DNA from: Eubacteriales bacterium
GTDB taxonomy: Bacteria > Bacillota > Clostridia > Oscillospirales > CAG-382
Direction: 5' to 3'
NCBI GenBank assembly: GCA_028705495.1
Contig: JAQWDK010000003.1
Location: forward strand, 124,001 to 188,000
DNA: 64,000 nucleotides
Below, one piece after another: positions 9,381 to 43,120 of this stretch. Below the pieces are notes generated by a model. That model saw only the letters and a program-made list of their open reading frames with translations, did not search any database and was not told the DNA's origin. Numbering within the stretch: position 1 is the stretch's first letter; every line of letters starts with the position of its first letter. The position numbers were made by a program, and so were the translations under genes.

Positions 9381-12300
9381 TTATTCCCAAATCTCATCGA
9401 TCAGCCGCCAAAACCACGCCGCCGACCCCGTATACCAGCTCCAACCGCCCCTGCCGGGGTGCTTCGGGTTCGAATAAATGTCTCCCGACAGGACGAAAGG
9501 TTCAATCTTGTACGCTTCCGCAAGCCTTTTGTCAGCGCATCTTATGACCGGATTAAGCGCTCTTGCCGCTTCAATCGCTTTGTCTTTCTTTCCTGCTCTC
9601 CAAAGTCCGAGCGCCATCCACATCGACGCATGGGTGTACTGACCGCCGTTCTCCCTGATTCCCGGCACATAGCTTTGAATATAGCCGATCTTTCGCGTGT
9701 CCTTATCAAAAGGCGGCGTGAATAGCTTCATAATCTGCCATTTACGGTCGAAGCACATCGAATAAGCCATGTCGAGCGCAATGCTGACCCTGCCCTCATC
9801 CGCGCCGCCAACAATCGCCGGCATGCACTGGGGCAGTATGTCAAGCTCCGCTTCACCGCTGCCGAAGGCACCGAGTGCTTCTCCGTTGTCGGTAAACGCT
9901 CGCAGATATCTGTCGCCGTCAAAACAGTAGCTCTCAATCGCACCTAACACACTGTTCGCTGCTTTTTGCAGCCCTTCCGCTCTCTCGTCGCCGCGCTCAA
10001 TCATTTGTGTTCCAAACTCCCGCACCGCCCAGATGAAAAGCCATGCGGTGAACACACTCTCTCCTCGTCCTTCCTCGCCAAGCTCCGAGAAGCCGTCGTT
10101 CCAATCACAGCTACCCATCAGCGGCAGTCCGTGTTTTCCAAAGCTTAAACTGCGCTGCAGAGCTCTTACACAGTGCTCATAAACGCTGTCCTTCCCCTCA
10201 CTTAGTCCCGCATGCTCGTACCTTTCGCTCTCTCCCTCTCTAAGTTCAGGCGAAACAAGCCATCTTGTTTTCACATCAAGCACAGAACCGTCACCTGTTT
10301 CCCTCAGATATTCTGCAGTAACAAGCGGCAACCAAAGGAAGTCGTCGGAACAGCGTGTCCGCACACCTTCCCTCAGCGGATGCCACCAGTGCTGAACACC
10401 GCCGTCCTCATATTGATGCGCACTGCATCTGACTATATGAGTTCGCACCAAATCGGGCCTTGTCTTCATTAGCATAAGGCTGTCCTGCAGTTGGTCGCGG
10501 TAGCCGTATGCTCCTCCCACCTGATAGTAGGCACAGCGTGAGAAAAAGCGGGAAATCGTCACCTGATAGGGCATAAAGTGATTGTACATAACCGCAAAAG
10601 GGGCTTCAAGCTTTTCTTTTGGCTTTGGCATCAGGCTTTTATAGAATATAGCGGCTGCTTTTTCCTGTTCTTCGGCAAACGACCTGTCAATCATTCCTGA
10701 AATTATTTCCGCTGTTTTCTGCTGCGGCGCCGCGCCGACATAGAACCAGACTTCAGAGGACTTCGTATATACTGCCGCGCAGTCCCGCCTTAGTGTTTCT
10801 TCACCGAACAGCGATGAAAAGTCGGTTACAACACCGGAATTCGCGCTGTGTTCTGTGTTAAACCCTTCTGCTTCTATTTTACTGGGTACAGTTCCGGCAA
10901 AACCGTAAACTTTTGACTTCCTTAGGTTTCTAAAACAGACAACGCCTTGATTTAACTTTGTTATTTCCGCAAGCCTGCCGCCGTCGGGTCTTAGCACAAG
11001 AGCTGTCACAATACCGTCGCCACCGCTGTGAGATAGCTTAATCAGCTTTACGGGGAACTTTTCGCATACAAACAGCGACATCTCGTAATCAATCCCACCC
11101 GCCGAGCCTTGCCAAATAACCTTACCTTCACCGAACCTCACAAAAGAGCTGACTGCGCAAAGGTCGTATGCCTTGCCTCCGACGAACATCAAAATCCTCT
11201 CACCCCTGTTAGGAAAATACGGGTTGTTTGAAAATTCAGTCAGCTTATTTTTTTGTGCATTTCTAAAATAGGAGAAACCTAACGAATTTTGCGTCTGAAC
11301 ACTGCCTAAACAGTGATTCGCGGTGATATAGCTCCATTCGAGAGGGATGCCTGACGATTTATCGATAATAAAACCGCCGTTTTCGTCAAAGCTGCCGCCC
11401 TCAACCTTAATTATTCCCTCACCAAACTTATTTTCGCGATTTTCTATTTGTGTGACAACCTCAGGTATAATGCCTCCGCTCCTGCCTTCTTCTGTAAGCG
11501 ACAGCAAGTCAATCGAATTCGCAAGCAGATAGTTATAGTCGTTTCGGCTCTCATCGATACGGAAGTCCTCGTAATCGATGACAAACACACCACCGCGCCT
11601 ACCGAGGAACGCCTCACAGTGGGCAAGGGACACCGCTTTCATCACGCTGCGCCTGCTCTCCCTTGCGTACCTATCCGCTTCTCTCACCACCACAACGAGC
11701 TCACATCTTACAGAAGCGATCGTCAGCGTTCTAAACAAAATGAGACTCTCGTAAACTGAGCTGTCGTCATTGGTGTCAGCGAGTAGTATCGGGTAATCGC
11801 CGCTGATACTGTACCTCCAGAGGCTGTGGATATCTCCGCTAACCCTCTCCGCTTGAGATAAAACAGGGGACGAAAAATATATTGCTCCGAGTACCCTTGA
11901 AAGCGCTGCAGGTTGAAGATGTCTGTATATACCTTGCTTTTTGCCGTTTTCCTTGTACTTCGCCCTGCCACTCCTGATTGCCGATAACGCTTCTTCCTTT
12001 GTGGCAGCGCATGATATCAGAAAACATGCCCTGCCTCCGGAAAGTTCTTGTGTCTTTATCCTAAGATAGGGATTTACGGAAGCACCGGTGCGCCCCATCA
12101 GCGGTTTTACAAGTTCTCTCACATCAGTAAGCCTCGTGTCGAATGAAAATCCCACCCCCTCATCAGCAAGAGCTACCGCTAAAAACAGCGGTCGAGCTTT
12201 GAGTTTTGGTTTTCTTGAGTACAATATTATTTTTTCACCTTCAATAAATTCTGCGCTAACCGAGAGCTTCGAGAAAGCCGGATGCGCTTTGAAAGTCTGC

Positions 12301-15300
12301 TCATCGTCGAGTGCTATCGGAAATTCAAGCTCAGCGAAACAGTTTGCCTTCTCACCAGCAAGTGTTTCAATTCTTATGCATTTCCCTTCAGTAGAAAAGC
12401 GCGCTCTTCCCGAAAACTCGCCAGATGTTCTGATATGGGAAACAGCTCCGTCTTTGTGTTCGACGGTGAATGAAGCCGATTCGTCTTCTTTTCCGCTTGT
12501 TGGAACAAAAGCTTTTCCAGAAAGTTTAAGCGAAAAGCCTGACTTTGCATTAAATAAATCAAAATCACATTCGTTTATAATAACCTTGCCGAATCGCATC
12601 GAAACATGTCCGAGGTCCCCCACAAGCATAGTCAGCCTACCGGAGTTTACAAGCCTGAGTTCAGGGTTTTGGATGCTGTATGAGAAAATACTGCCCTCGC
12701 TTCTGGTGTGGGGAGGAACAGGTGCAGGCTTCGCTTCGGGTGCGATATCGTGGTAGATGGACACATCCGGAACTTTCTCTTGAAGCAGCTCGTAAGCTGC
12801 CGCCATGGAGGGATTTCGAATAAATCTTCTAACAAACACTTCCGCGAAACAAGCGTTTGCCGCTGCTGTGATACTCATACCCAAATGGTGAGACATATAG
12901 CTTTTTATAACCGCAAAACCCGAACCGCCGGCTCTTGTGGGGGTGAAGTCGCAAGCCTCGTAATGCCCATGTTCGCCGATCATACCGTATTCTTCAAGTT
13001 TTTTGAGGTTGTTTACACAGGATTCCGGACTGATCTTCAGCATCAAAAAGCTTGAATATGGTGAAACGACGGGCTCATCCGTCAAATAACGTTTTAGACC
13101 GAGTTTTTGAACGCCTACCGCTTTATACTGGTAATTCATCTCGCTGTCAAAGGAGAAAAACGCGCTTTCCGAAAGCCCCCAAACACCGTCCGACAAGCCG
13201 GCGGCGATGTGTTTTTTGCGCTGCTGTTCAAAGGCGAATCTCAGCGCTTCGTATTCAAAAGAGTTGTCGTAAACAGGTAGGAATAGAGGCGGCATAAAGT
13301 ATTCAAACGTTGTACCCGTCCAGCTTGCCATCCCGATATAACCGCCGCCAGAAATAAGTGTTCTCGATAGCTTCGCCCAGTGCTTTTTAGGAACGATCCC
13401 TTTTGCAAGAGCATAATAGCTTGTAGTTCTCGCTTCGCTCATATAAAGGTCGTAGCAAATTTCACTCTGTCTTCCGCTCTCTCCAACTTCAAAACCCAAA
13501 GAAAACAGCGACTTTTTTGGGTTGTACAGCACAGAAAAATCAGCTTCAGTTTCGAGAAATGCAAACTCATCAGATAACTCCAACAGCCCGTACTCCTTGA
13601 GCCCCTCTCGCAGAGTGCAGATCGATGTGACGAAGTTTCCGCTGTCAACGGTGGAAACATAAGCCCCGCCGATTACATCAAGTGTGTCCGTAGCATACCA
13701 GTTATAGAGATGGCCGTTCCACTTTTGCATCTTCTGAAGGGTGGAAAGTGTAGCTCTCAACCGTCTCTCAAGCTCATCTGCATCGATAAACCCAAAATCC
13801 GCCGCCGCAAGACATGATAAAAGGTAAAGCCCGATATTTGTCGGCGACGTCCTGTCCGCTCTCGCATATACAGGTTCATACTGCACATTGTCAGGCGGCA
13901 GATGGTTTGTTTCGGAATTAACATGCTTAGAAAAGAAACTCCACATCGCCGCGGACTGTTTTATCAGGTATTCCCTGCAGTCGGCACTCAGCTTTTTATC
14001 CTCGCCGCTGGCGGGTTTCGAGATATAATATGCTGCTATCGGAAAGCAAAACCACAAAAGTCCGAGTAGCCTGAAGGTCCAGAACGGTGCGAAAACAAAA
14101 ATAGCGGCGCCGATAATTGCCGACGGCAGCATCTTTGACGCATATAGTGGAAATCCGCTGCCGCCCTGTTCGCCTTCTCCAGCAGTCACCCATTCAAGCA
14201 GCTTTTTCTTTGAGAAAAGCATCCTATAAGCCGATCGAATTGCCGCTGCCGCAGTTGTCTGCGCGGAGAAAGCTATTGCAGAAATTTCATAAAATAATCT
14301 TGATAGGTCACGGCGTACTGAGTGGGATATACGCGAAAAATATCGCCTTCTCGGCCGCCTAAAAAGCCTGCTCGGTGTGCTGATAATGCCGAGAAGCTGC
14401 GGTAGCAGCGTTGACGAAAGGATAAAAATCAGCAGAATCCCGGAAAACGCAGTTCCGATAAAATCAAAAGCAGACAACAGAAAAACCACAAACAAAGCTG
14501 TAAACTGCGTTATCGGCAGCAGTACATTTATCAGGTTTTCGACAATCATATATTTTCCGGCAGGTGAACCGAGCTTTTTCAGCAGTCCAAGATTCTGGAC
14601 ATCCCCCCTGATCCATCTTCCAGCGCGCCCGTAATACGACAGTACGCTTTTTGGCGCTGAGTCCGACAGCGTTACATCGGAAATTAATCTTGTACGAAGT
14701 ATTGCGCCCTCCGGCAAGTCGTGACTGAGCACAAAACCGTCGGGTATTTTGGGTATAACAAGCTCACGAAAACAGTCTGCATCAAAAAGTCCTTTTCCGC
14801 AGAAAACTCCTTCGCCAAGCACGCTCTGATATTTGTCGTATGCAGCGCTTTGGTATGCATCAACACCGCCGCTTCCGCCGATTAGGCGCGAAAACCCGGT
14901 TTTGGCGGCGCTTTCAAGGGATACCGCCATCGAAGGCTGGAACAGCGCCCAACCCGACACCACCCTGCCGTCCTTAATAACTGGGCGAGCGAGCGGATGA
15001 ACAGCAGCGCAAAGCAGCTCGCTGACTGCGCCGAGGGATAAATTTGTGTCCGCATCAAGTGTCAGAATATATTTTACGCCGCTGACTGCGCTCGAGTCAC
15101 CCTCAAAATAATCGATCGCATCCTTCTCACCACCGATAAAGCGCACCGCATCTGTAACAGCGCCTCTCTTGCGCTCCCTGCCACCGTAAAGTCCGTCGGC
15201 ATTTTTCACACGCTTCCTTGCAAGGAGAACAAAGCCACCACCGTGTTTTTTGTTTAACTCAGAAATTACCCTCTTTGCGTTTTCAATTATTCCATCATCT

Positions 15301-16292
15301 TCGGGCTTGACTTCTTCCGGCCCGTCACGGAAGTCACCGAGTATGCCGAAAATATGGTTGTCCCTTTTGTTTGAAAGGTAGAACCGCTCAAGCCTTGCAA
15401 AAAGACCGTCGTCTTTTTCACCGCCGAAAAGCAGTGATGTGATAACTATAAGGGTTTTGTCAGTAGCGTATTCGCTCTCAAGTCTGAAAACCGTTTTACC
15501 GGAGACAGCGTCTCTAAAGACGGTGTCTATTTTACTGCCCACCGCTCTAACGAAAAGCGAGAACAAGAAGTCGGAAATTATTTGTGATGATTTATAGAGC
15601 GGTAAAACGGCAAAAATCGCCCACACATCGCAAAGCCTTGAACAAATTCCGAGAAGCAAAGCAAAAATTAGAATTTCTGAAATAAAAAACGATGTTTTTA
15701 TACCCTTTTCCGGAAATAAGAGAAAGCCGATATGCGTCTTTTTGTCATGGGATAAAGCGACAAGTCTTTCTGCTTCATCATTGTATGATACGCCGTTTTT
15801 TTCAGCGAGTTCTTCAAGCTTTTTGCGGTACGCGCTTTTTGTAGCCTTATCCATTTTGGAATACTCTCTTGTGTATTCGCGCTCTAAAATCCGTTCGGCG
15901 GGAGACACGCATTCCAAAAATTCTTCAAAGTCCTCGCTTCCCAATTTGCGGAGCAGTTCTATTGCCGGTCCGCAGTTTTCAGCTCTTGCAATCTCAATTA
16001 TTGCCGCCGCAGCAAGAAACACGGGAACGCTTGACAGCTCCCCGTAGCCGAGATTTGTGTAATGGGAAAAAAAGCCGCAAAGCTTTTCTATGTCTAAGGC
16101 AAAGGAATACTTTTTGCAATATTTGTCGCAAATTTCCGCCATGTTTTCATGCTTTGCAAGGATAGCCTTACTGCGTTTCAAACCATCATAATTGCGGCTG
16201 ATTAGGTAGTAGTTGTCGGTAATCCACCTATTACCGCCTTCAAGATAGATTCTCTTAATTTTACCGAACGCCGCCTGAACTTGTCTCTGCAT
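9381..16292 (-). CDS. Cyclic beta-1,2-glucan synthase-like protein (GT84 + glucoamylase-like + GH94)
   Basis: A 2303-residue multidomain membrane protein. Order: an N-terminal helical region; membrane segments; a GT84-type glycosyltransferase with the DxD motif LTLDADTN near residue 410 and RWIRGDVQN downstream; more membrane segments near 550-660; a central (alpha/alpha)6 glucoamylase-like domain (LSTLQKMQKWNGHLYNWYAT); and a C-terminal GH94 phosphorylase-like domain with CDWNDG near residue 2060. This is the NdvB/ChvB architecture, which polymerises glucose from UDP-glucose into beta-1,2-glucan, closes it into a ring and sets its length. I start it at the ATG at 16292 (GGAG eight bases upstream) rather than 16331. 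Stand-alone, no exporter nearby. Confidence 0.88.
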   Translation of the reverse strand: MQRQVQAAFGKIKRIYLEGGNRWITDNYYLISRNYDGLKRSKAILAKHENMAEICDKYCKKYSFALDIEKLCGFFSHYTNLGYGELSSVPVFLAAAAIIEIARAENCGPAIELLRKLGSEDFEEFLECVSPAERILEREYTREYSKMDKATKSAYRKKLEELAEKNGVSYNDEAERLVALSHDKKTHIGFLLFPEKGIKTSFFISEILIFALLLGICSRLCDVWAIFAVLPLYKSSQIISDFLFSLFVRAVGSKIDTVFRDAVSGKTVFRLESEYATDKTLIVITSLLFGGEKDDGLFARLERFYLSNKRDNHIFGILGDFRDGPEEVKPEDDGIIENAKRVISELNKKHGGGFVLLARKRVKNADGLYGGRERKRGAVTDAVRFIGGEKDAIDYFEGDSSAVSGVKYILTLDADTNLSLGAVSELLCAAVHPLARPVIKDGRVVSGWALFQPSMAVSLESAAKTGFSRLIGGSGGVDAYQSAAYDKYQSVLGEGVFCGKGLFDADCFRELVIPKIPDGFVLSHDLPEGAILRTRLISDVTLSDSAPKSVLSYYGRAGRWIRGDVQNLGLLKKLGSPAGKYMIVENLINVLLPITQFTALFVVFLLSAFDFIGTAFSGILLIFILSSTLLPQLLGIISTPSRLFRRPRRRYFSRISHSVRRDLSRLFYEISAIAFSAQTTAAAAIRSAYRMLFSKKKLLEWVTAGEGEQGGSGFPLYASKMLPSAIIGAAIFVFAPFWTFRLLGLLWFCFPIAAYYISKPASGEDKKLSADCREYLIKQSAAMWSFFSKHVNSETNHLPPDNVQYEPVYARADRTSPTNIGLYLLSCLAAADFGFIDADELERRLRATLSTLQKMQKWNGHLYNWYATDTLDVIGGAYVSTVDSGNFVTSICTLREGLKEYGLLELSDEFAFLETEADFSVLYNPKKSLFSLGFEVGESGRQSEICYDLYMSEARTTSYYALAKGIVPKKHWAKLSRTLISGGGYIGMASWTGTTFEYFMPPLFLPVYDNSFEYEALRFAFEQQRKKHIAAGLSDGVWGLSESAFFSFDSEMNYQYKAVGVQKLGLKRYLTDEPVVSPYSSFLMLKISPESCVNNLKKLEEYGMIGEHGHYEACDFTPTRAGGSGFAVIKSYMSHHLGMSITAAANACFAEVFVRRFIRNPSMAAAYELLQEKVPDVSIYHDIAPEAKPAPVPPHTRSEGSIFSYSIQNPELRLVNSGRLTMLVGDLGHVSMRFGKVIINECDFDLFNAKSGFSLKLSGKAFVPTSGKEDESASFTVEHKDGAVSHIRTSGEFSGRARFSTEGKCIRIETLAGEKANCFAELEFPIALDDEQTFKAHPAFSKLSVSAEFIEGEKIILYSRKPKLKARPLFLAVALADEGVGFSFDTRLTDVRELVKPLMGRTGASVNPYLRIKTQELSGGRACFLISCAATKEEALSAIRSGRAKYKENGKKQGIYRHLQPAALSRVLGAIYFSSPVLSQAERVSGDIHSLWRYSISGDYPILLADTNDDSSVYESLILFRTLTIASVRCELVVVVREADRYARESRRSVMKAVSLAHCEAFLGRRGGVFVIDYEDFRIDESRNDYNYLLANSIDLLSLTEEGRSGGIIPEVVTQIENRENKFGEGIIKVEGGSFDENGGFIIDKSSGIPLEWSYITANHCLGSVQTQNSLGFSYFRNAQKNKLTEFSNNPYFPNRGERILMFVGGKAYDLCAVSSFVRFGEGKVIWQGSAGGIDYEMSLFVCEKFPVKLIKLSHSGGDGIVTALVLRPDGGRLAEITKLNQGVVCFRNLRKSKVYGFAGTVPSKIEAEGFNTEHSANSGVVTDFSSLFGEETLRRDCAAVYTKSSEVWFYVGAAPQQKTAEIISGMIDRSFAEEQEKAAAIFYKSLMPKPKEKLEAPFAVMYNHFMPYQVTISRFFSRCAYYQVGGAYGYRDQLQDSLMLMKTRPDLVRTHIVRCSAHQYEDGGVQHWWHPLREGVRTRCSDDFLWLPLVTAEYLRETGDGSVLDVKTRWLVSPELREGESERYEHAGLSEGKDSVYEHCVRALQRSLSFGKHGLPLMGSCDWNDGFSELGEEGRGESVFTAWLFIWAVREFGTQMIERGDERAEGLQKAANSVLGAIESYCFDGDRYLRAFTDNGEALGAFGSGEAELDILPQCMPAIVGGADEGRVSIALDMAYSMCFDRKWQIMKLFTPPFDKDTRKIGYIQSYVPGIRENGGQYTHASMWMALGLWRAGKKDKAIEAARALNPVIRCADKRLAEAYKIEPFVLSGDIYSNPKHPGRGGWSWYTGSAAWFWRLIDEIWE

Positions 16293-16387
16293 ATTTTTTT
16301 CTCCACTGATGTATTTTGTCATTGCCGGCAAATCAAAACTGCGGACTGTCTCTTAAATATTCTTGACTTTACCGGGAAATTTATTCA

Positions 16388-16955: not shown

Positions 16956-16982
16956 GCTTTTAGTCCCAAAAATAAAGCATTA

Positions 16983-17092
16983 TTTTGGCAAAACCGATGA
17001 AAATCGGTGACGCAAAGTTAAGTGTCTAATATAAGCCCCTAAAAATGCTTATGATGATTGACTGACTGCAAGAAAAGGTAGCAACCCTGCCT
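16983..17092 (+). promoter_or_regulatory. Cyclic di-GMP-I (GEMM-I) riboswitch aptamer
   Basis: The signature is clear in the 5' half: TTGGCAAAACC, a perfect six-pair stem ACCGAT/ATCGGT closed by a GAAA tetraloop, then TGACGCAAAG, the most conserved block of the family. A second arm follows (ATAAGC/GCTTAT, 17031-17053) flanked by TCTAA and ATGATGA, which resembles the tetraloop receptor, and AGTTAA can pair with TTGACT at its base. The two G residues before the first C suggest c-di-GMP rather than the cGAMP-type variant. The 3' part (GGTAG/CTGCC, 17077-17091) is less typical and overlaps the terminator hairpin, so ligand binding probably decides termination. Confidence 0.72.
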
Positions 17093-17147: not shown

Positions 17148-17984
17148 ATGAAAAAAATAGTATCCTTTGTTCTCTCCCTCGCGCTCGTTCTCTCCCTTGG
17201 CGTATTCGCAACATTTGCAGCCGCCGACAGAGATGAGTACCTCGCAAAGTACGATGAATATGTTACATACTACGAAGGAACCTATGTTCCTTCCTACAAC
17301 AGCTATAACGAAGCTCTCGACGCTTTTTCCGCAAGAATTGATGCGGCAAAAGAGGAGCTTACCTTTGAGCAGTTTGAAGCGGTCTTAGCCTTTTTGAATG
17401 AGATTAAAGCCGAAAGATCAGCTTTCTACGGTGACCGCGAAACTCCCGGCACGAGCAGATACGAAGTACCCTTCTACCGTAACGCAATGTTTGCCGCTGC
17501 TGAAGATGAAGATTACGACCTTGCTCTGACCAACAGAGAAACGCTCTTAGCGCTTGTTACCGAAAGAGTCGAATTTTTAAGCGGTCTTGAAGAGCAGTTT
17601 GACGACTATGATTTAGAAGACGGAACTGTTCCCGAAGTTCCCGCAATCTCCGTTGATTTTAAAATCACCAATGACTACGGTTACGGCTCTCATGCGTTTG
17701 AGATTACTTTAACTAACAACTCCTCCGCTCCTGTTTCCGATTGGTTGCTCAACTTCACTTACACCGATGGAGATATTAATACCTTCTGGCTCGAAGGTTC
17801 ATCCATTGCATATCAAAAATCCGGTCAAAATTTTTCAATCTACCCCACCAACGAGCATCAAACCGTTTATACAATTTCAGCAGGCGAATCAATAATAATA
17901 CGCGGTAACGGTAATACGCTCGGAACTAGTATCACAAACGCAACCTTTAACGGTGAACCCATAACAATGACGTTCTCGAAATAA
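17148..17984 (+). CDS. Secreted protein with a C-terminal CBM2/CBM3-like domain
   Basis: 278 residues. A classical signal peptide (MKKIVSFVLSLALVLSLGVF, cleavage near TFAAA) is followed by a helical, Tyr- and Glu-rich region (about residues 28-155). The C-terminal beta-sandwich-like part, from about residue 165, contains ITLTNNSSAPVSDWLLNFTY and ISAGESIIIRGNG. The latter resembles carbohydrate-binding modules that bind cellulose or related glycans (conserved Trp and alternating strands). No catalytic domain or anchoring motif is seen, so an adhesin or matrix component is more likely than an enzyme. The c-di-GMP riboswitch upstream supports a role in attachment. It has its own promoter and terminator. 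Confidence 0.75.
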   Translation: MKKIVSFVLSLALVLSLGVFATFAAADRDEYLAKYDEYVTYYEGTYVPSYNSYNEALDAFSARIDAAKEELTFEQFEAVLAFLNEIKAERSAFYGDRETPGTSRYEVPFYRNAMFAAAEDEDYDLALTNRETLLALVTERVEFLSGLEEQFDDYDLEDGTVPEVPAISVDFKITNDYGYGSHAFEITLTNNSSAPVSDWLLNFTYTDGDINTFWLEGSSIAYQKSGQNFSIYPTNEHQTVYTISAGESIIIRGNGNTLGTSITNATFNGEPITMTFSK

Positions 17985-37122: not shown

Positions 37123-38307
37123 TTATTTGTCAAGAAGGCAGGCAATTCCGGGAAGCTCTATACCCTCGAGGAATTCGAGAGATGCGCCGCCGCCTGTCGA
37201 AATATGTGTAATTCTGTCGGCATAACCGAGTTTTTCAACAGCTGCTGCGCTATCGCCACCGCCGATTATAGAAACCGCACCGCTGTCAGCAACAGCTTTT
37301 GCTACAGCTTCAGTACCTTTCGCGAATTTATCAAACTCGAAAACACCCATCGGGCCGTTCCAGATAACAGTGCCTGCGCCTTTAATTTGTTCGGCAAACA
37401 TCTCCGCAGTCTTCGGTCCGATATCAAGTCCCTGCCAACCGTCGGGGATTGTATTTGAATCGAATATTTGCGCTTCTGCATCTGCTGCAAACTCTTTAGC
37501 ACAAACAGTGTCGGTAGGAAGAAGGAATTTAATGCCCCTCTTCTCTGCTTTTTCAACTAGTTCTTTAGCGAGTTCGAATTTGTCGCTCTCACAAAGTGAG
37601 TTACCGATTTTACCGCCGAAAGCAGCGTCAAATGTGTAGGCCATTGCTCCGCCGATAATGAGTGCGTCAACTTTGTCGATAAGGTTGTTGATAACACCGA
37701 TTTTATCAGAAACTTTTGCACCTCCGAGTATTGCGACAAAGGGACGTTTCGGATTTGCAAGCGCACCACCCATAACGGAAATTTCCTTCTGGATTAAATA
37801 ACCGCAAACTGCAGGAAGGTAATCTGCAACACCAGCTGTTGAAGCATGTGCTCTGTGGGAAGTGCCAAATGCGTCGTTGACATAGATTTCAGCAAGAGAT
37901 GCGAGCTGTTTTGAGAATTCAGCGTCGTTTTTCTCTTCTTCTTTATGGAATCTGACATTTTCGAGGAGCATTACATCACCGTCACGAAGTGCGGCAACTT
38001 TCGCTTTTGCATCTTCTCCGACTACGTCAGAAGCAAGTACAACTTTTTTACCGAGGAGCTCAGAAAGGCGAGCGGCAACGGGAGCGAGAGAGTATTTGAG
38101 ATTGAATTCACCCTTAGGTCTGCCGAGATGAGAGCAGAGTATAACTTTTGCACCGTTTTTGATAAGGTAATTAATTGTTGGTAGTGCGCCTTGGATACGG
38201 TTGTCATCGGTGATTACCGATCCGTCCAGCGGTACGTTGAAGTCGCATCTGACAAGTACCTTTTTACCGGATACTTCGATGTCTTCAATAGTCTTCTTGT
38301 TTAGCAT
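37123..38307 (-). CDS. pgk: Phosphoglycerate kinase
   Basis: Makes ATP from 1,3-bisphosphoglycerate in lower glycolysis. 394 residues with [22 protein letters not shown], the hinge region, [11 protein letters not shown] and the nucleotide-binding [19 protein letters not shown] lies upstream of the ATG. gapA and gpmI, often in the same cluster, are not here. There are only 63 bases between this gene and the solute-binding protein gene upstream, with no obvious terminator, so read-through is possible. Confidence 0.98.
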
Positions 38308-38370: not shown

Positions 38371-39816
38371 CTATTTGAAATAAGCGGCTGCTTCTTTGCC
38401 GATACCGTCCATTACATTCTTTTTCTGGAAATGTTCTTCAAGATTAAGTTTTTTTATTCTGATTTCGTTTAGAAGCTCATAGGTGTTGTTTGAAATGCTG
38501 TTGATTCCGCCGCCGTAAAGGAAGGTGAAATCAATTGCGGTAGATTCGATTATTCTATTGAGCATAAGTGCTGAGGAGTTGTTTCTTAAATAGAAGTTGA
38601 TGTATGAATTTTTAGCGGCTTGTTCCACATGCTCATAAGACCCTGCGAACAGCGCATTAAGTATAATCCCGGTGCGTTCGCTGTCCTGCGTAAAATATGG
38701 TACACCAATAACGCTCACGCTTTGATCAACGTATGAAAAATAGTCACTCTGCACCTCATTAACTTTCGGAAGCGGAACAATGCTCCATTCCCTTCTGTTG
38801 TCGGCAATCGCTGAAGCAAGGTCAAGACGGTACACATAAAACAGCGTTTTACCCGCCTTAAAGCTCTCAATCGAAGGCTGTTTTTGGACGCCCGAATAAG
38901 CGCTTGACTTTAAAAGTGTATTTGCCTTGTCAAGTATTTCTGCTGCGGAATCAAGATCAATTCCAAGTTTAAGCGGTTTTTTGTAGACATCCCCGATAAA
39001 TTTTACCCCTGATGAACCCCAAAGAGCGTTCAAAAAGTTTGCGGAGTCGGCATATGACGCGAAACCGTTGTAGCCATCGCCAAGTTTTGCGACTTCTTCA
39101 GCCATCTGTAAAAACTTTTCCCATGTCCAGCTACCGTTCTTTACATAAACCGAAGGGTCCTCAAGTTCGAGCTGTGAGAGGAGCGCAAGGTCATAAAAAA
39201 CACACCACTGCGCACCGATATATTCGCTGACAGAGTCGACCATCATATAGACGGTGTTTTCGCCTGTGGCAGCTTTCAAATAATCAGCATTAACATACTC
39301 CGCGCTCATATTAAAATAAGGCAGAGTCGTTAAGTTCATTAAAAGTCCGTCGGGGATGAGCCTTGACATCGCATTTGCCGGACCTAAGAGAAGGTCACCG
39401 ACATATTCGCCTGCTTGTTGTGCATTGCGCACTTCCGAATAGTAGGAGCTTTCGGGAATCACCTTTGTAACAAAGCGCACATTGAATTTGTTTTGTACCC
39501 ATTCGTTGCGTGTGTTAATCGACTGCTGAAAAAGCCCGTCATCAACAGGTATAAAATCACCTTCAGATGCGGTTACAACGGTAAATTCATATTCGCCGAA
39601 ATTCTTTTTCTCAAGGGAGTTGATCCATTCTTCCGCAGTCAAAAACTCCGAGCCAATCGCAGGCTCCTTAGAAACATTCGCATCGGGTTTAAGTGGGTCA
39701 ACCTCGCTGAAAGGCGAGGTTTTACCGCATCCTGTGAAGAGAAGGAGCATTGATGTGGCAATAGCCATAGCAATAACACGGCGGAAAATTATCTTTTTTG
39801 TCAAAGTGTTCTCCAT
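38371..39816 (-). CDS. Extracellular solute-binding lipoprotein, second orphan
   Basis: 481 residues. A lipoprotein signal ends in LLLFTGC (Cys near residue 30), then a binding-protein fold with segments such as GSWTWEKFLQMAEEVAKLGD and WSIVPLPKVNEVQSDYFSYV. These closely resemble the equivalent segments in the orphan at 18188 (VPMPKINEEQDGYYSYV), so the two are paralogues. Again no permease or ATPase gene is adjacent. It starts 15 bases after the RNase R-like gene with no good ribosome site, suggesting coupling. Substrate unknown, probably a sugar. Confidence 0.83.
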   Translation of the reverse strand: MENTLTKKIIFRRVIAMAIATSMLLLFTGCGKTSPFSEVDPLKPDANVSKEPAIGSEFLTAEEWINSLEKKNFGEYEFTVVTASEGDFIPVDDGLFQQSINTRNEWVQNKFNVRFVTKVIPESSYYSEVRNAQQAGEYVGDLLLGPANAMSRLIPDGLLMNLTTLPYFNMSAEYVNADYLKAATGENTVYMMVDSVSEYIGAQWCVFYDLALLSQLELEDPSVYVKNGSWTWEKFLQMAEEVAKLGDGYNGFASYADSANFLNALWGSSGVKFIGDVYKKPLKLGIDLDSAAEILDKANTLLKSSAYSGVQKQPSIESFKAGKTLFYVYRLDLASAIADNRREWSIVPLPKVNEVQSDYFSYVDQSVSVIGVPYFTQDSERTGIILNALFAGSYEHVEQAAKNSYINFYLRNNSSALMLNRIIESTAIDFTFLYGGGINSISNNTYELLNEIRIKKLNLEEHFQKKNVMDGIGKEAAAYFK

Positions 39817-39831
39817 GGGTGCTTTGAATAA

Positions 39832-41832
39832 TTAGCGGACAAACTTATACAGCATCTTTACAAGGGTTCCGTCCTTATCGACATACTCAGTGAAATTGTC
39901 GCGAATTGCTTTAATCTGTGTACCAAAAGTCAGCTTTGTTGAGCCTATCTCAATAGACCGTTGCGACCTATTGTAATTTCCTCCCATTATGGAAGAAAGC
40001 GGGATAAAGCCATAGGCGTTGTTCGGGAGCAGCACTTCTGCGCCCTCCTGGGACACCATAGTCACAATTGCAGAAAGCGGCATATTTCCGTTCTTCTCCG
40101 CAAGGCTTTCGTTAATCTGCTTTTCGATTCTATCGAGCGCATTTTTCTTACGAAGTCCGTTTATTTTAGCTGACACAAGAGCCTTTTGGCGCATGTCAGT
40201 AAGTTCTTCGGTGGAAGAGCCTTCAAGATGTGCTTTCAAAATCCTAAGAAGTGTTAAATCAATATAGCTCTCGCAGGGGTTGGTGAAATTAACGAATCCA
40301 AATCTTGAAAGGGTAAAGTGTGCTCCCGGGCTTGTCGTCTGGGTCGGCGTTGGCAGAACATTCTTCATAACAACGCTTGCCGCACGAACTTTTCTGTCTG
40401 TGTTGGGGTTCAAGACAAAGTTATACATAAACAGCAGACGGCAAATAGTCGTTTCATCAACAACAAGAGGTGTATCAAGGTGTGGAAGAGTTATCAGCGA
40501 CTCGTATGACGGCGGAAGCTGGCTTTCAAAGAGGAATGGGATTGCGTTATCATTTACATATTTCGAAAGACTTACACCAACAAGAGTATCAATAATATTG
40601 AGCATCATGTCGATATCATTCATCGAAGTGTATTCAAAACCTGTAACGCTGTCACCGGTGAATGTATATTTTTTATTGTTAACATCTTTAAGCTGGCAGA
40701 ACTCATAGGTTTTATCCTGGCTAAGCACTGCGCAAATGTCGAACATCGTCCAGATTTCGTTTGTAATTGTGCTGTATTTTGCGCTGAGCTTCATTGTTTT
40801 GGTTTTGTCAATATTAGAAAACAGCTCATTGACCTCGGTAGTTGTACCATTGGCTGAGACATTGACAATCGCATTTTCCAAGCTGATTCCTGTGCATTCG
40901 CCCTTGCTGTCAAGCTCCATAATTATAGCGAAAACACTCTTGTCTTCACCAGCTTTAAGGTAGAATTTGTTTCGTAAAGTTTCAGGGAAGAGCCTGAAGT
41001 CGCCGTCAAGCAATGAATATGAAGCGAATCTTGAAAATAAATCGTTTTCAAGCTCACTGTTTCCATTTGCGTAAAGAGAAGCATCGGAGTAATAAACGCC
41101 GAGCCTAAAACCTTCTTCGAGTCTTTCGAAAGAATAAGCTTTTGTCGGCATTACGCCGTCACTCGCAAGTGTGAAGAGGTTGCGGCTTCTTAAATCCTTT
41201 CCCTTGCCTTCTAAAAGGTCTGCGTTTGACTTTGAAGCGGCAATTTCAGCTTCCTGGAGCGCGCCCTCGGAAAAGCTTGCTGCAAGTCCTCCATTTAGGA
41301 GCTCAGACTTATAGCTTGTTTTAAAATTTCCGTCTTCTCCGATTACTTCAAGAATAGAAGCGCGAATAGTTCCGTTTGGTTTTCTCGAAATCAGCGCAAG
41401 AACGATGTCGCCTATCTGCGCACCGTTTAAATCTGCATTAAAAACAGGCGCGCGCAAAGTACTGCCCGAGCCGGCAACAAACATATTGTGAACATTGCCT
41501 TCTTCGAGCTTACCAGCGAGCGTAAACTCTTTCGGTGATATAATCGACTGCACGGTTGCATAACCCTGTGCTGAGTTGTTGACATGGTATTTTGCTCTGC
41601 CAGTGTAAGCGTTGGTAAAAACCGCTCTCTGACGTTTCTTCGGCGTTTTAACATAAACATTGACATCAACGATGTCGCCGATCATCGCTCCTTTTGTGAA
41701 GGCGAGAGGTATCGTAACGTCGGTTATACCCAGGGTTACACCCTGTTCCTTCGCTCCGGAGAGATAGGCACCAAGGCCGTTCTCGTCGGAAGAATATATT
41801 GTAGCTTGTGTATTAAACTTTTTCTCAGGCAT
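39832..41832 (-). CDS. RNB-domain (RNase R-like) protein lacking catalytic residues
   Basis: 666 residues. Two N-terminal OB-like segments (GDIVDVNVYV; AQIGDIVLALISRKPNGTIRA) are followed by a recognisable RNB core. RLGVYYSDASLYA corresponds to the RNase R block R-L-x-V-x-I-A-D-V-S, and HFTLSRFGFVNFTNP to the late F-x-S-P-I-R-R-Y block. A C-terminal S1-like domain (IVTMVSQEGAEVLLPNNAYGFIPLSSI) follows. The metal-binding Asp cluster (normally D-A-R-D-F-D-D-A just before the first block) is replaced by residues without it, and SPIRRY is NPCESY. Its position after secG is where rnr lies in Firmicutes. Exonuclease activity is very unlikely; it may still bind RNA. Confidence 0.8.
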   Translation of the reverse strand: MPEKKFNTQATIYSSDENGLGAYLSGAKEQGVTLGITDVTIPLAFTKGAMIGDIVDVNVYVKTPKKRQRAVFTNAYTGRAKYHVNNSAQGYATVQSIISPKEFTLAGKLEEGNVHNMFVAGSGSTLRAPVFNADLNGAQIGDIVLALISRKPNGTIRASILEVIGEDGNFKTSYKSELLNGGLAASFSEGALQEAEIAASKSNADLLEGKGKDLRSRNLFTLASDGVMPTKAYSFERLEEGFRLGVYYSDASLYANGNSELENDLFSRFASYSLLDGDFRLFPETLRNKFYLKAGEDKSVFAIIMELDSKGECTGISLENAIVNVSANGTTTEVNELFSNIDKTKTMKLSAKYSTITNEIWTMFDICAVLSQDKTYEFCQLKDVNNKKYTFTGDSVTGFEYTSMNDIDMMLNIIDTLVGVSLSKYVNDNAIPFLFESQLPPSYESLITLPHLDTPLVVDETTICRLLFMYNFVLNPNTDRKVRAASVVMKNVLPTPTQTTSPGAHFTLSRFGFVNFTNPCESYIDLTLLRILKAHLEGSSTEELTDMRQKALVSAKINGLRKKNALDRIEKQINESLAEKNGNMPLSAIVTMVSQEGAEVLLPNNAYGFIPLSSIMGGNYNRSQRSIEIGSTKLTFGTQIKAIRDNFTEYVDKDGTLVKMLYKFVR

Positions 41833-42143: not shown

Positions 42144-42548
42144 CTAGTCGGCTGAGGTTTCTGATACTTCCTCTACGCTCTCATCAGCTTCAGAAGTTGC
42201 CTCAGACACAGTTTCACTTGCTTCGGTGCTCTCTTCAGTGCTTGCTTCGGTGCTTGTCGTTGTACTGGTATTTGAAGGTAAACTTGTAGTTCCGACGGTG
42301 TCTTTCTCAGGCTGGAAAACATAGATTGCAATTGTGAGAATAGCGAGGATTATAACGAGAACAGTTGTGACTTTGTTAAGAATAATATCTGCTTTTTTAC
42401 CTTTTTCCTTGCCGAGGAAAGTCTCAGCACCGCCGCTTATCGCTCCTCCGAGCCTTTTACTTTTGGCGCTTTGTCCGAGGATTGCGAGGATAACTCCTAC
42501 GGCGCAAATTATGAGAAGGACAGCGAGTACAGTCTGTATAGCATTCAT
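42144..42548 (-). CDS. secG: Preprotein translocase subunit SecG with an extended acidic Ser/Thr tail
   Basis: SecG is the small third subunit of the SecYEG channel. Residues 1-85 are a normal SecG: first membrane helix from MNAIQTVLAVLLIICAVGVI, the family motif AKSKRLGGAISGGAETFLG, and a second helix near 60-80. The remaining 50 residues are almost only Ser, Thr, Glu, Ala and Asp (STEASTEESTEASETVSE). Typical bacterial SecG proteins are 70-110 residues and lack such a tail. The promoter at 42719-42747 gives a leader of about 160 bases. Confidence 0.88.
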   Translation of the reverse strand: MNAIQTVLAVLLIICAVGVILAILGQSAKSKRLGGAISGGAETFLGKEKGKKADIILNKVTTVLVIILAILTIAIYVFQPEKDTVGTTSLPSNTSTTTSTEASTEESTEASETVSEATSEADESVEEVSETSAD

Positions 42549-42889: not shown

Positions 42890-43120
42890 TTATTCTGCCA
42901 AGAACTTCGAGAGAGCAGACTTGAGTTCCGAAGCGTCGTCGGTGTGAGCAACAATTTCAATTTTTTGTGCTAAATCAAGGCTGAATATACCCATAATCGA
43001 CTTACCGTCAACTATGTATCTGCCGGAGTGGAGGTCGATGGAATAAGGCATAGCTGTAGCTATTTTCGCAAATTCCTGAACGTCAGCAATCTGTTTTAAT
43101 CTTATCGAGAACTTTTCCAT
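42890..43120 (-). CDS. HPr-like protein without the phosphorylatable histidine
   Basis: 76 residues with the HPr fold pattern. The block GRYIVDGKSIMGIFSLDLA corresponds to HPr around its regulatory Ser46 (K-S-I-M-G), which is kept as Ser41. The region that should hold the active-site His15 (G-x-H-A-R-P) reads QIADVQEF, with an Asp about where the His would be. It therefore cannot relay PTS phosphate. It could be a Crh-like regulator, which in Bacillus also lacks His15 but keeps Ser46. It lies 16 bases after a DUF4430 lipoprotein gene and is followed by a terminator. Confidence 0.85.
   Translation of the reverse strand: MEKFSIRLKQIADVQEFAKIATAMPYSIDLHSGRYIVDGKSIMGIFSLDLAQKIEIVAHTDDASELKSALSKFLAE

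Follow-up and report, generated by a model that had tools for sequence, protein, structure and literature searches.

In a family-level clade of Clostridia, the descendant of rnr encodes an RNB-domain protein whose catalytic centre has been erased; purifying selection has maintained it among relatives, and it is the sole RNB protein of the genome in which it was found. We lean towards reading this protein as a pseudonuclease that binds RNA or the 30S ribosomal subunit, of which we infer the RNA binding. The gene lies on the minus strand of the window, the whole 64,000-nucleotide stretch that was analysed, where it occupies exactly one open reading frame. A previous sequence-only reading had described an intact frame of 666 codons, leaving the strand unstated, and the frame proved to be as described. 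The gene and its domains are as follows.

39832..41832, minus strand: pseudo-RNase R gene, 666 aa, supported by the open reading frame and by profile and structure matches
Residues 36-69 of the window protein: weak CSD1-like OB match, OB_RNB 12 bits, below the cut-off
41272..41439, minus strand: CSD2-like domain, residues 132-187, 27.6 bits, just above the cut-off of 26.2
40222..41199, minus strand: RNB domain, residues 212-537, Pfam profile
39940..40077, minus strand: S1-like C-terminal domain, residues 586-631, 17.9 bits, below the cut-off of 22

The window protein belongs to the RNB superfamily (Pfam PF00773, 96.1 bits against a cut-off of 29.3) and scored only 100.9 bits against the 597.85 demanded by the NCBIfam RNase_R equivalog TIGR02063. 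It resembles RNase R of the Bacillota type, which that model describes, in fold, in the CSD-RNB-S1 order and in its place behind secG, but it begins directly at the CSD1-like part and lacks the Asp cluster, the catalytic Arg and the Tyr253 clamp. Its sequence-closest solved relatives are the RNase R chains 8cdu (Bacillus subtilis) and 5xgu (Escherichia coli). An AlphaFold model built with 32 homologues reached a mean pLDDT of 79.4 and a pTM of 0.81, with a stretch below pLDDT 50 at residues 451-478. The top Foldseek match of this model was E. coli RNase R (E 2e-38, TM 0.69/0.72), and VIA aligned it to B. subtilis RNase R 8cdu over 596 residues (Z 35.8, rmsd 7.0) and to the RNB part of 8cdv over 367 residues (Z 34.6, rmsd 2.6). 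Matches to RNase R by both programs spanned the whole length, which places the protein in the RNase II/R fold and agrees with the RNB fold traced earlier from the letters. The VIA matches also included S1/OB structures and the Ssd1 structure 7am1 (Z 28.6). A different fold was rejected, as all 38 VIA rows above Z 9 were RNB proteins.

The two sites at which catalysis should reside are altered beyond recognition.

41137..41166, minus strand: erased Asp cluster, residues 223-232 reading ASDGVMPTKA, against D-x5-D-x-D-D-A in RNase R
40264..40281, minus strand: erased catalytic Arg site, residues 518-523, NPCESY, where RNase R has SPIRRY

To read these sites by position, the window protein and 27 clade proteins were placed in one alignment with 12 intact RNase R proteins and the RNase II and RNase R of E. 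coli; catalytic and clamp residues are given in RNase II numbering. The four Asp of RNase II/R bind Mg2+ or the RNA 3′ end and Tyr253 and Tyr313 clamp the RNA, according to PMC8097288, PMC10901742 and PMC12320835. The window protein retains none of the four Mg-binding Asp, reading A, P, K and a gap at D201, D207, D209 and D210, respectively. In the same alignment, Y253 is replaced by Ser, Y313 by Thr and E390 by Asn, while R500 has become Glu and K501, an Arg in RNase R, has become Ser. Arg500 and Glu390 serve in catalysis or line the RNA channel. Both losses called by the sequence-only reading, that of the Asp cluster and that of the catalytic Arg pair (SPIRRY to NPCESY), are therefore evident against intact RNase R. 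Nor has the cluster moved: the pattern D-x(3-8)-D-x-D-D, with Glu also allowed, occurs nowhere in the whole window protein, whereas its strict form was found in 51/51 intact proteins, so the Asp cluster is not restored elsewhere. The sole strict match in the pseudo set (L026, residue 112) falls outside the aligned site, and a shifted cluster was rejected there as well.

The same erosion runs through the clade. Per-position counts, for which 12 of the 51 intact proteins were used, gave retention of D201, D207, D210, Y253, E390 and R500 in 0/28 clade proteins each and of D209 in 3/28, against 12/12 intact proteins at each of these seven positions. Y313 is less affected, being Tyr in 14/28 and Phe in 8/28. 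Averaged over eight catalytic and RNA-clamp columns, retention was 7.6%, compared with 54% over 62 further invariant columns of RNB (p 1.2e-4 in a Mann-Whitney test that takes columns as independent); this selective loss argues for erosion aimed at the active centre. We infer that RNA hydrolysis via the RNB mechanism is impossible for the window protein. A nuclease with a rearranged metal site, using for instance a Glu at D209 together with other acids, is a very slight chance in our judgement: D209 is indeed Glu in 16/28 clade proteins, but none of the 28 has an Asp at 201, 207 or 210, Arg500, Tyr253 and Glu390 are gone from all, and the window copy carries Lys at 209 and has no D/E cluster of the required spacing. 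In addition, RNase R loses its activity when a single one of these Asp is mutated, as reported in PMC10901742 and PMC8097288.

A profile search of its own genome (assembly 97.2% complete) returned the window protein as the only RNB match, which answers the earlier question about another, intact rnr: none was found. The clade to which this genome belongs, its own family-level group (f1, 63 genomes), has members whose metagenome-assembled genome records are labelled Clostridia, three of them with the NCBI family Oscillospiraceae. An RNB match was found in 28/63 of these genomes, with best scores all between 71 and 210 bits, and the gene is absent from the other 35/63; a profile built from the 28 proteins themselves recovered the same 28/63 and no extra genome. 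The catalytic site is lost in all 28 proteins, whereas 51/51 RNase R proteins from outside the clade have both the Asp cluster and SPIRRY. The family sharing these losses that the sequence-only reading had surmised is therefore real, comprising 27 further genomes, which also disposes of a single odd genome or a sequencing error as the explanation.

Among 396 genomes of the order, 150 had an RNB match, 17 of these in f1; matches of the other families scored 325-383 bits among those listed, except for one contig-edge fragment. The remaining 246/396 genomes of the order gave no RNB match, which suggests that many of these bacteria can do without RNase R. Sampling of the class gave RNB matches in 267/323 genomes, and best E-values outside f1 were at the intact level apart from three fragmented cases. 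Motifs were read in the 28 f1 proteins, the 51 outside proteins and four low scorers, and most other genomes are represented by best E-values only. The low scorers did not qualify as further pseudo-RNases. Both motifs are present in G509 and G711, on fragments or in frame-shifted sequence. In G107, SPIRRYPDL is preserved at the edge of a contig that stops short of the Asp region, and G465 shows only its Arg site, the letters of its Asp region all being N.

A single origin of the pseudonuclease fits the protein tree. From 91 proteins, 22 duplicates or near copies were dropped, and an IQ-TREE tree was computed for the remaining 69; L001, which is identical to the window protein, and the fragment L029 were left out beforehand. 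A single branch set all 28 pseudo proteins apart (SH-aLRT 100), and the pseudo set was still separated in this way when the long-branch row L028 was removed (SH-aLRT 99). The window row is itself a long branch, its end branch measuring 2.5-3.3 changes per column; it joined L028 in the full tree and, without L028, took a place intermediate between the intact set and the remaining pseudo proteins, so the exact place of the window copy is unsure. Its membership in the pseudo set is supported by tree-independent characters. A short shared insertion fills window positions 342 (Asp/Glu) and 344 (Ser/Thr) in 28/28 pseudo proteins and in 2/14 others, and Asp at window residue 406 shows the same distribution (28/28 and 2/14).

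Sequence comparison between relatives points to purifying selection on pseudo-RNase R. Values of dN/dS ranged from 0.08 to 0.28 over nine pairs, with 0.08, 0.135 and 0.205 in the three pairs with dS < 1, and this range indicates that the proteins are maintained. The corresponding values were 0.03-0.21 for six pairs of intact RNase R and 0.03-0.09 for the neighbouring pgk in 8/9 pairs, the ninth (0.20) involving a partial gene. No internal stop was present within the RNB matches of all 28 proteins. No close relative of the window copy was found for a dN/dS estimate, the only congener compared (G001) being without the gene. The earlier description of the frame as maintained and not decaying therefore stands for the relatives, where selection is seen, while for the window copy itself it rests on indirect evidence. 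A missing Shine-Dalgarno site was rejected as a sign of decay, as secG and the downstream lipoprotein gene also have none; across the window, counting both strands and shadow frames, such a site precedes the first start of 17/43 open frames of at least 200 aa.

These data bear on a rival interpretation, in which RNase R became dispensable, the site was lost first and the gene is now vanishing everywhere with no present function. Its absence from 35/63 f1 genomes, the long branch of the window copy and the lack of the gene in the congener would all fit. So would a clean later loss in four genomes of genus g3 (G026-G029), in which secG is followed by the lipoprotein gene and the RNase R slot is gone; this deletion in sister lineages, together with the frequent absence, indicates that the gene is dispensable. 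However, uninterrupted matches in 28/28 proteins and the low dN/dS speak against decay, the fold is still predicted with a pTM of about 0.8 in the two members that were modelled (the window copy and L089), and a frame of 666 codons would hardly have stayed open over more than two changes per column if unconstrained. We therefore regard mere decay as quite improbable.

The gene sits in the slot of rnr, as had been proposed from the order of secG and this gene.

42890..43120, minus strand: HPr-like protein, 76 aa, upstream of secG
42144..42548, minus strand: secG, directly upstream of the pseudo-RNase R gene, 51.8 bits
38371..39816, minus strand: solute-binding-protein-like lipoprotein gene, starting 15 bases past the end of the pseudo-RNase R gene
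37123..38307, minus strand: pgk, PGK 562.5 bits
36339..37109, minus strand: triosephosphate isomerase frame (tpiA), TIM 323.9 bits

Within the clade, secG is directly upstream in 14/28 genomes, the window included, and the lipoprotein gene directly downstream in 26/28; in the other two the contig ends, and in one of them (G046) the remainder of the gene and, after it, the lipoprotein gene are found on a second contig. Most clade loci continue with pgk and tpiA. The lipoprotein-pgk-tpiA block also stands without pseudo-RNase R in further genomes, and the persistence of the lipoprotein gene when pseudo-RNase R is lost indicates that it is not an obligate partner. The order secG-rnr-smpB is common in Gram-positive bacteria according to PMC3534368, and the sequence-only reading had remarked on a lipoprotein gene standing in place of smpB. 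That arrangement is correct, but it is no oddity: smpB was found near intact rnr of the same order in 0/20 loci within the fetched flanks, in a search that did recover its positive controls (the smpB of the window genome and three rnr-linked smpB genes elsewhere), and the lipoprotein gene is a conserved clade neighbour. The missing smpB is thus uninformative on the loss of activity. As to where smpB lies, the window genome encodes SmpB (182 bits) on another contig.

Other features of the window were noted in passing. The lipoprotein of 38371-39816 belongs to an expanded family, with 16 matches in its own genome, itself included. The HPr-like protein matches PTS-HPr at 30 bits over residues 15-75 and keeps KSIMGIFSL, with no His at what we take to be the place of the phosphorylated His of HPr; such a protein could be Crh-like, or another kind of HPr that does not transfer phosphate. 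Farther away, a c-di-GMP-I riboswitch (16977-17073, plus strand, 62 bits) lies directly upstream of a 278-aa CBM_2 protein (17148-17984), CBM_2 being a cellulose-binding domain, and a 2316-aa protein (9381-16331, minus strand) with GH94, glucoamylase-like and DUF3131 domains resembles cyclic beta-glucan synthases.

Conservation within the clade suggests where the retained function lies. Mean identity in the pseudo set was 34% for RNB, 29% for CSD2, 28% for CSD1 and 22% for S1; the intact proteins gave 47%, 24%, 30% and 37% in the same domain order. As RNB is the best-conserved domain of the pseudo set, the selected function should reside mostly in the RNB body. Furthermore, 15/28 pseudo proteins have at most 500 aa and no cold-shock region, these lengths being approximate as starts were set at the first start codon or first M. 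In window numbering, R530 and K533 are present in 28/28 proteins, R522 in 24/28 and a Glu at position 253 in 27/28. Few members are as eroded as the window copy, which has lost five residues kept by 24-27 of the 28 (R211, H247, E253, R350 and R522). In many members the former metal site is neutral or basic (in RNase II numbering, E390 is Arg in 21/28 and D207 is Arg in 10/28), and it may have become a metal-free phosphate-binding pocket; these Arg substitutions, along with the invariant R530 and K533, would fit such a pocket with more local positive charge.

The same pattern could be claimed for a scaffold, in which the RNB body would now serve contacts between proteins, e.g., with PNPase, a helicase or the ribosome, and RNA would no longer be bound. 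The domains that usually bind RNA, S1 and the cold-shock domains, show weak conservation or, in 15/28, are lacking, and the insertion, Asp406 and Glu253 (window numbering) could mark a new surface. We hold this to be unlikely, though less so than decay: the basic RNB residues R530 and K533 are invariant, and gene order suggests no partner beyond secG and the lipoprotein, which stays after the gene is lost.

Fungi and, with Zam, cyanobacteria are already known to have RNB pseudonucleases, and the protein described here is best read as a bacterial RNB pseudonuclease analogous to both. Ssd1 and its kin in the fungal RNase II family likewise combine an RNB fold without the Asp cluster with long retention of the protein (PMC8097288 and PMC8934651), and Ssd1 binds RNA on its cold-shock domains (PMC8934651). 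Zam, beside which our protein can be set by description, is a bacterial RNB-family clade with a degenerate site; its conservation clusters in the OB domains, and its deletion has phenotypes, according to PMC9145284. The window protein shares with these proteins an RNB fold maintained without the Asp cluster. In Ssd1, the cold-shock domains are conserved and used and the funnel is blocked by insertions; in the clade, it is the RNB core that is conserved instead, the reverse of the pattern in both Zam and Ssd1. Conserved cold-shock domains, a trait of the Ssd1/Zam type, are not general in the clade, as more than half of its proteins have none. The two redox cysteines in the CSD1 of Zam (PMC9145284) also find no counterpart in the window protein, which has no Cys in residues 1-100. 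Finally, ascomycete yeasts still have Dis3, and cyanobacteria also have an intact Rnb family (PMC9145284), whereas the window genome has no other RNB protein. A literature search for an RNB pseudonuclease in Bacillota found none, Zam being the only bacterial case, although this is not proof of absence. What sets this case apart is that the place of rnr is held with no active RNB paralogue, that the RNB core is conserved and that the gene has been repeatedly deleted.

The earlier suggestion of a pseudo-nuclease family derived from RNase R is thus borne out by the fold, the rnr slot and 28/28 erased sites, and we propose the following scenario. A descendant of rnr would have become a pseudonuclease a single time, no later than in the ancestor of f1, and been kept as a protein, with later clean gene loss in several lineages. 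The retained RNB core and S1 would bind RNA or the 30S subunit without degradation, in the role of an accessory RNA-holding or regulatory factor, and bulk 3′-5′ decay would be left to PNPase. The window genome encodes PNPase (933 bits) and RNase Y (750 bits), both above their cut-offs; RNase J (TIGR00649) was not found in it at E 0.001 in a search that was positive in 13/14 control genomes. B. subtilis RNase R docks on the 30S subunit via its HTH, its cold-shock domains and the RNB tri-helix, according to PMC10901742. In the model of L089, an orthologue from a sheep-rectum metagenome-assembled genome, three helices are predicted to be kept at 438-487, the putative tri-helix stretch, for which the model of the window copy is poor.

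That the core binds RNA or the 30S subunit is plausible across the clade. The window copy is the weakest case: Tyr313 is gone, conserved residues have been lost and residues 451-478 are poorly modelled, which leaves RNA binding in the channel least secure in this member. The poor conservation of S1, the dispensability of the gene and the unclear charge difference also count against an RNA-holding role; net core charge was in fact dropped as evidence of RNA binding, as pseudo and intact proteins did not differ clearly. On balance, the pseudonuclease would probably hold RNA or ribosomes in place of destroying RNA, across a family of gut bacteria. We judge the chances to be even that the clade remodelled its sole RNase R into a factor that holds RNA or the 30S subunit without degrading it and whose function lies in the RNB core, which would make it a bacterial counterpart of Ssd1 in cells with no RNB nuclease left.

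Automatic annotation would call these genes ribonucleases, and the clade is a warning against equating an RNB domain with RNase R activity in gut Clostridia. Within this clade, a core RNase of bacteria has turned into a pseudoenzyme, and full-length, RNB-S1-trimmed and deleted forms occur beside sister families with the intact enzyme. The clade is thus a natural experiment on which RNase R functions, among them ribosome degradation, trans-translation and cold shock, need catalysis and which need binding.
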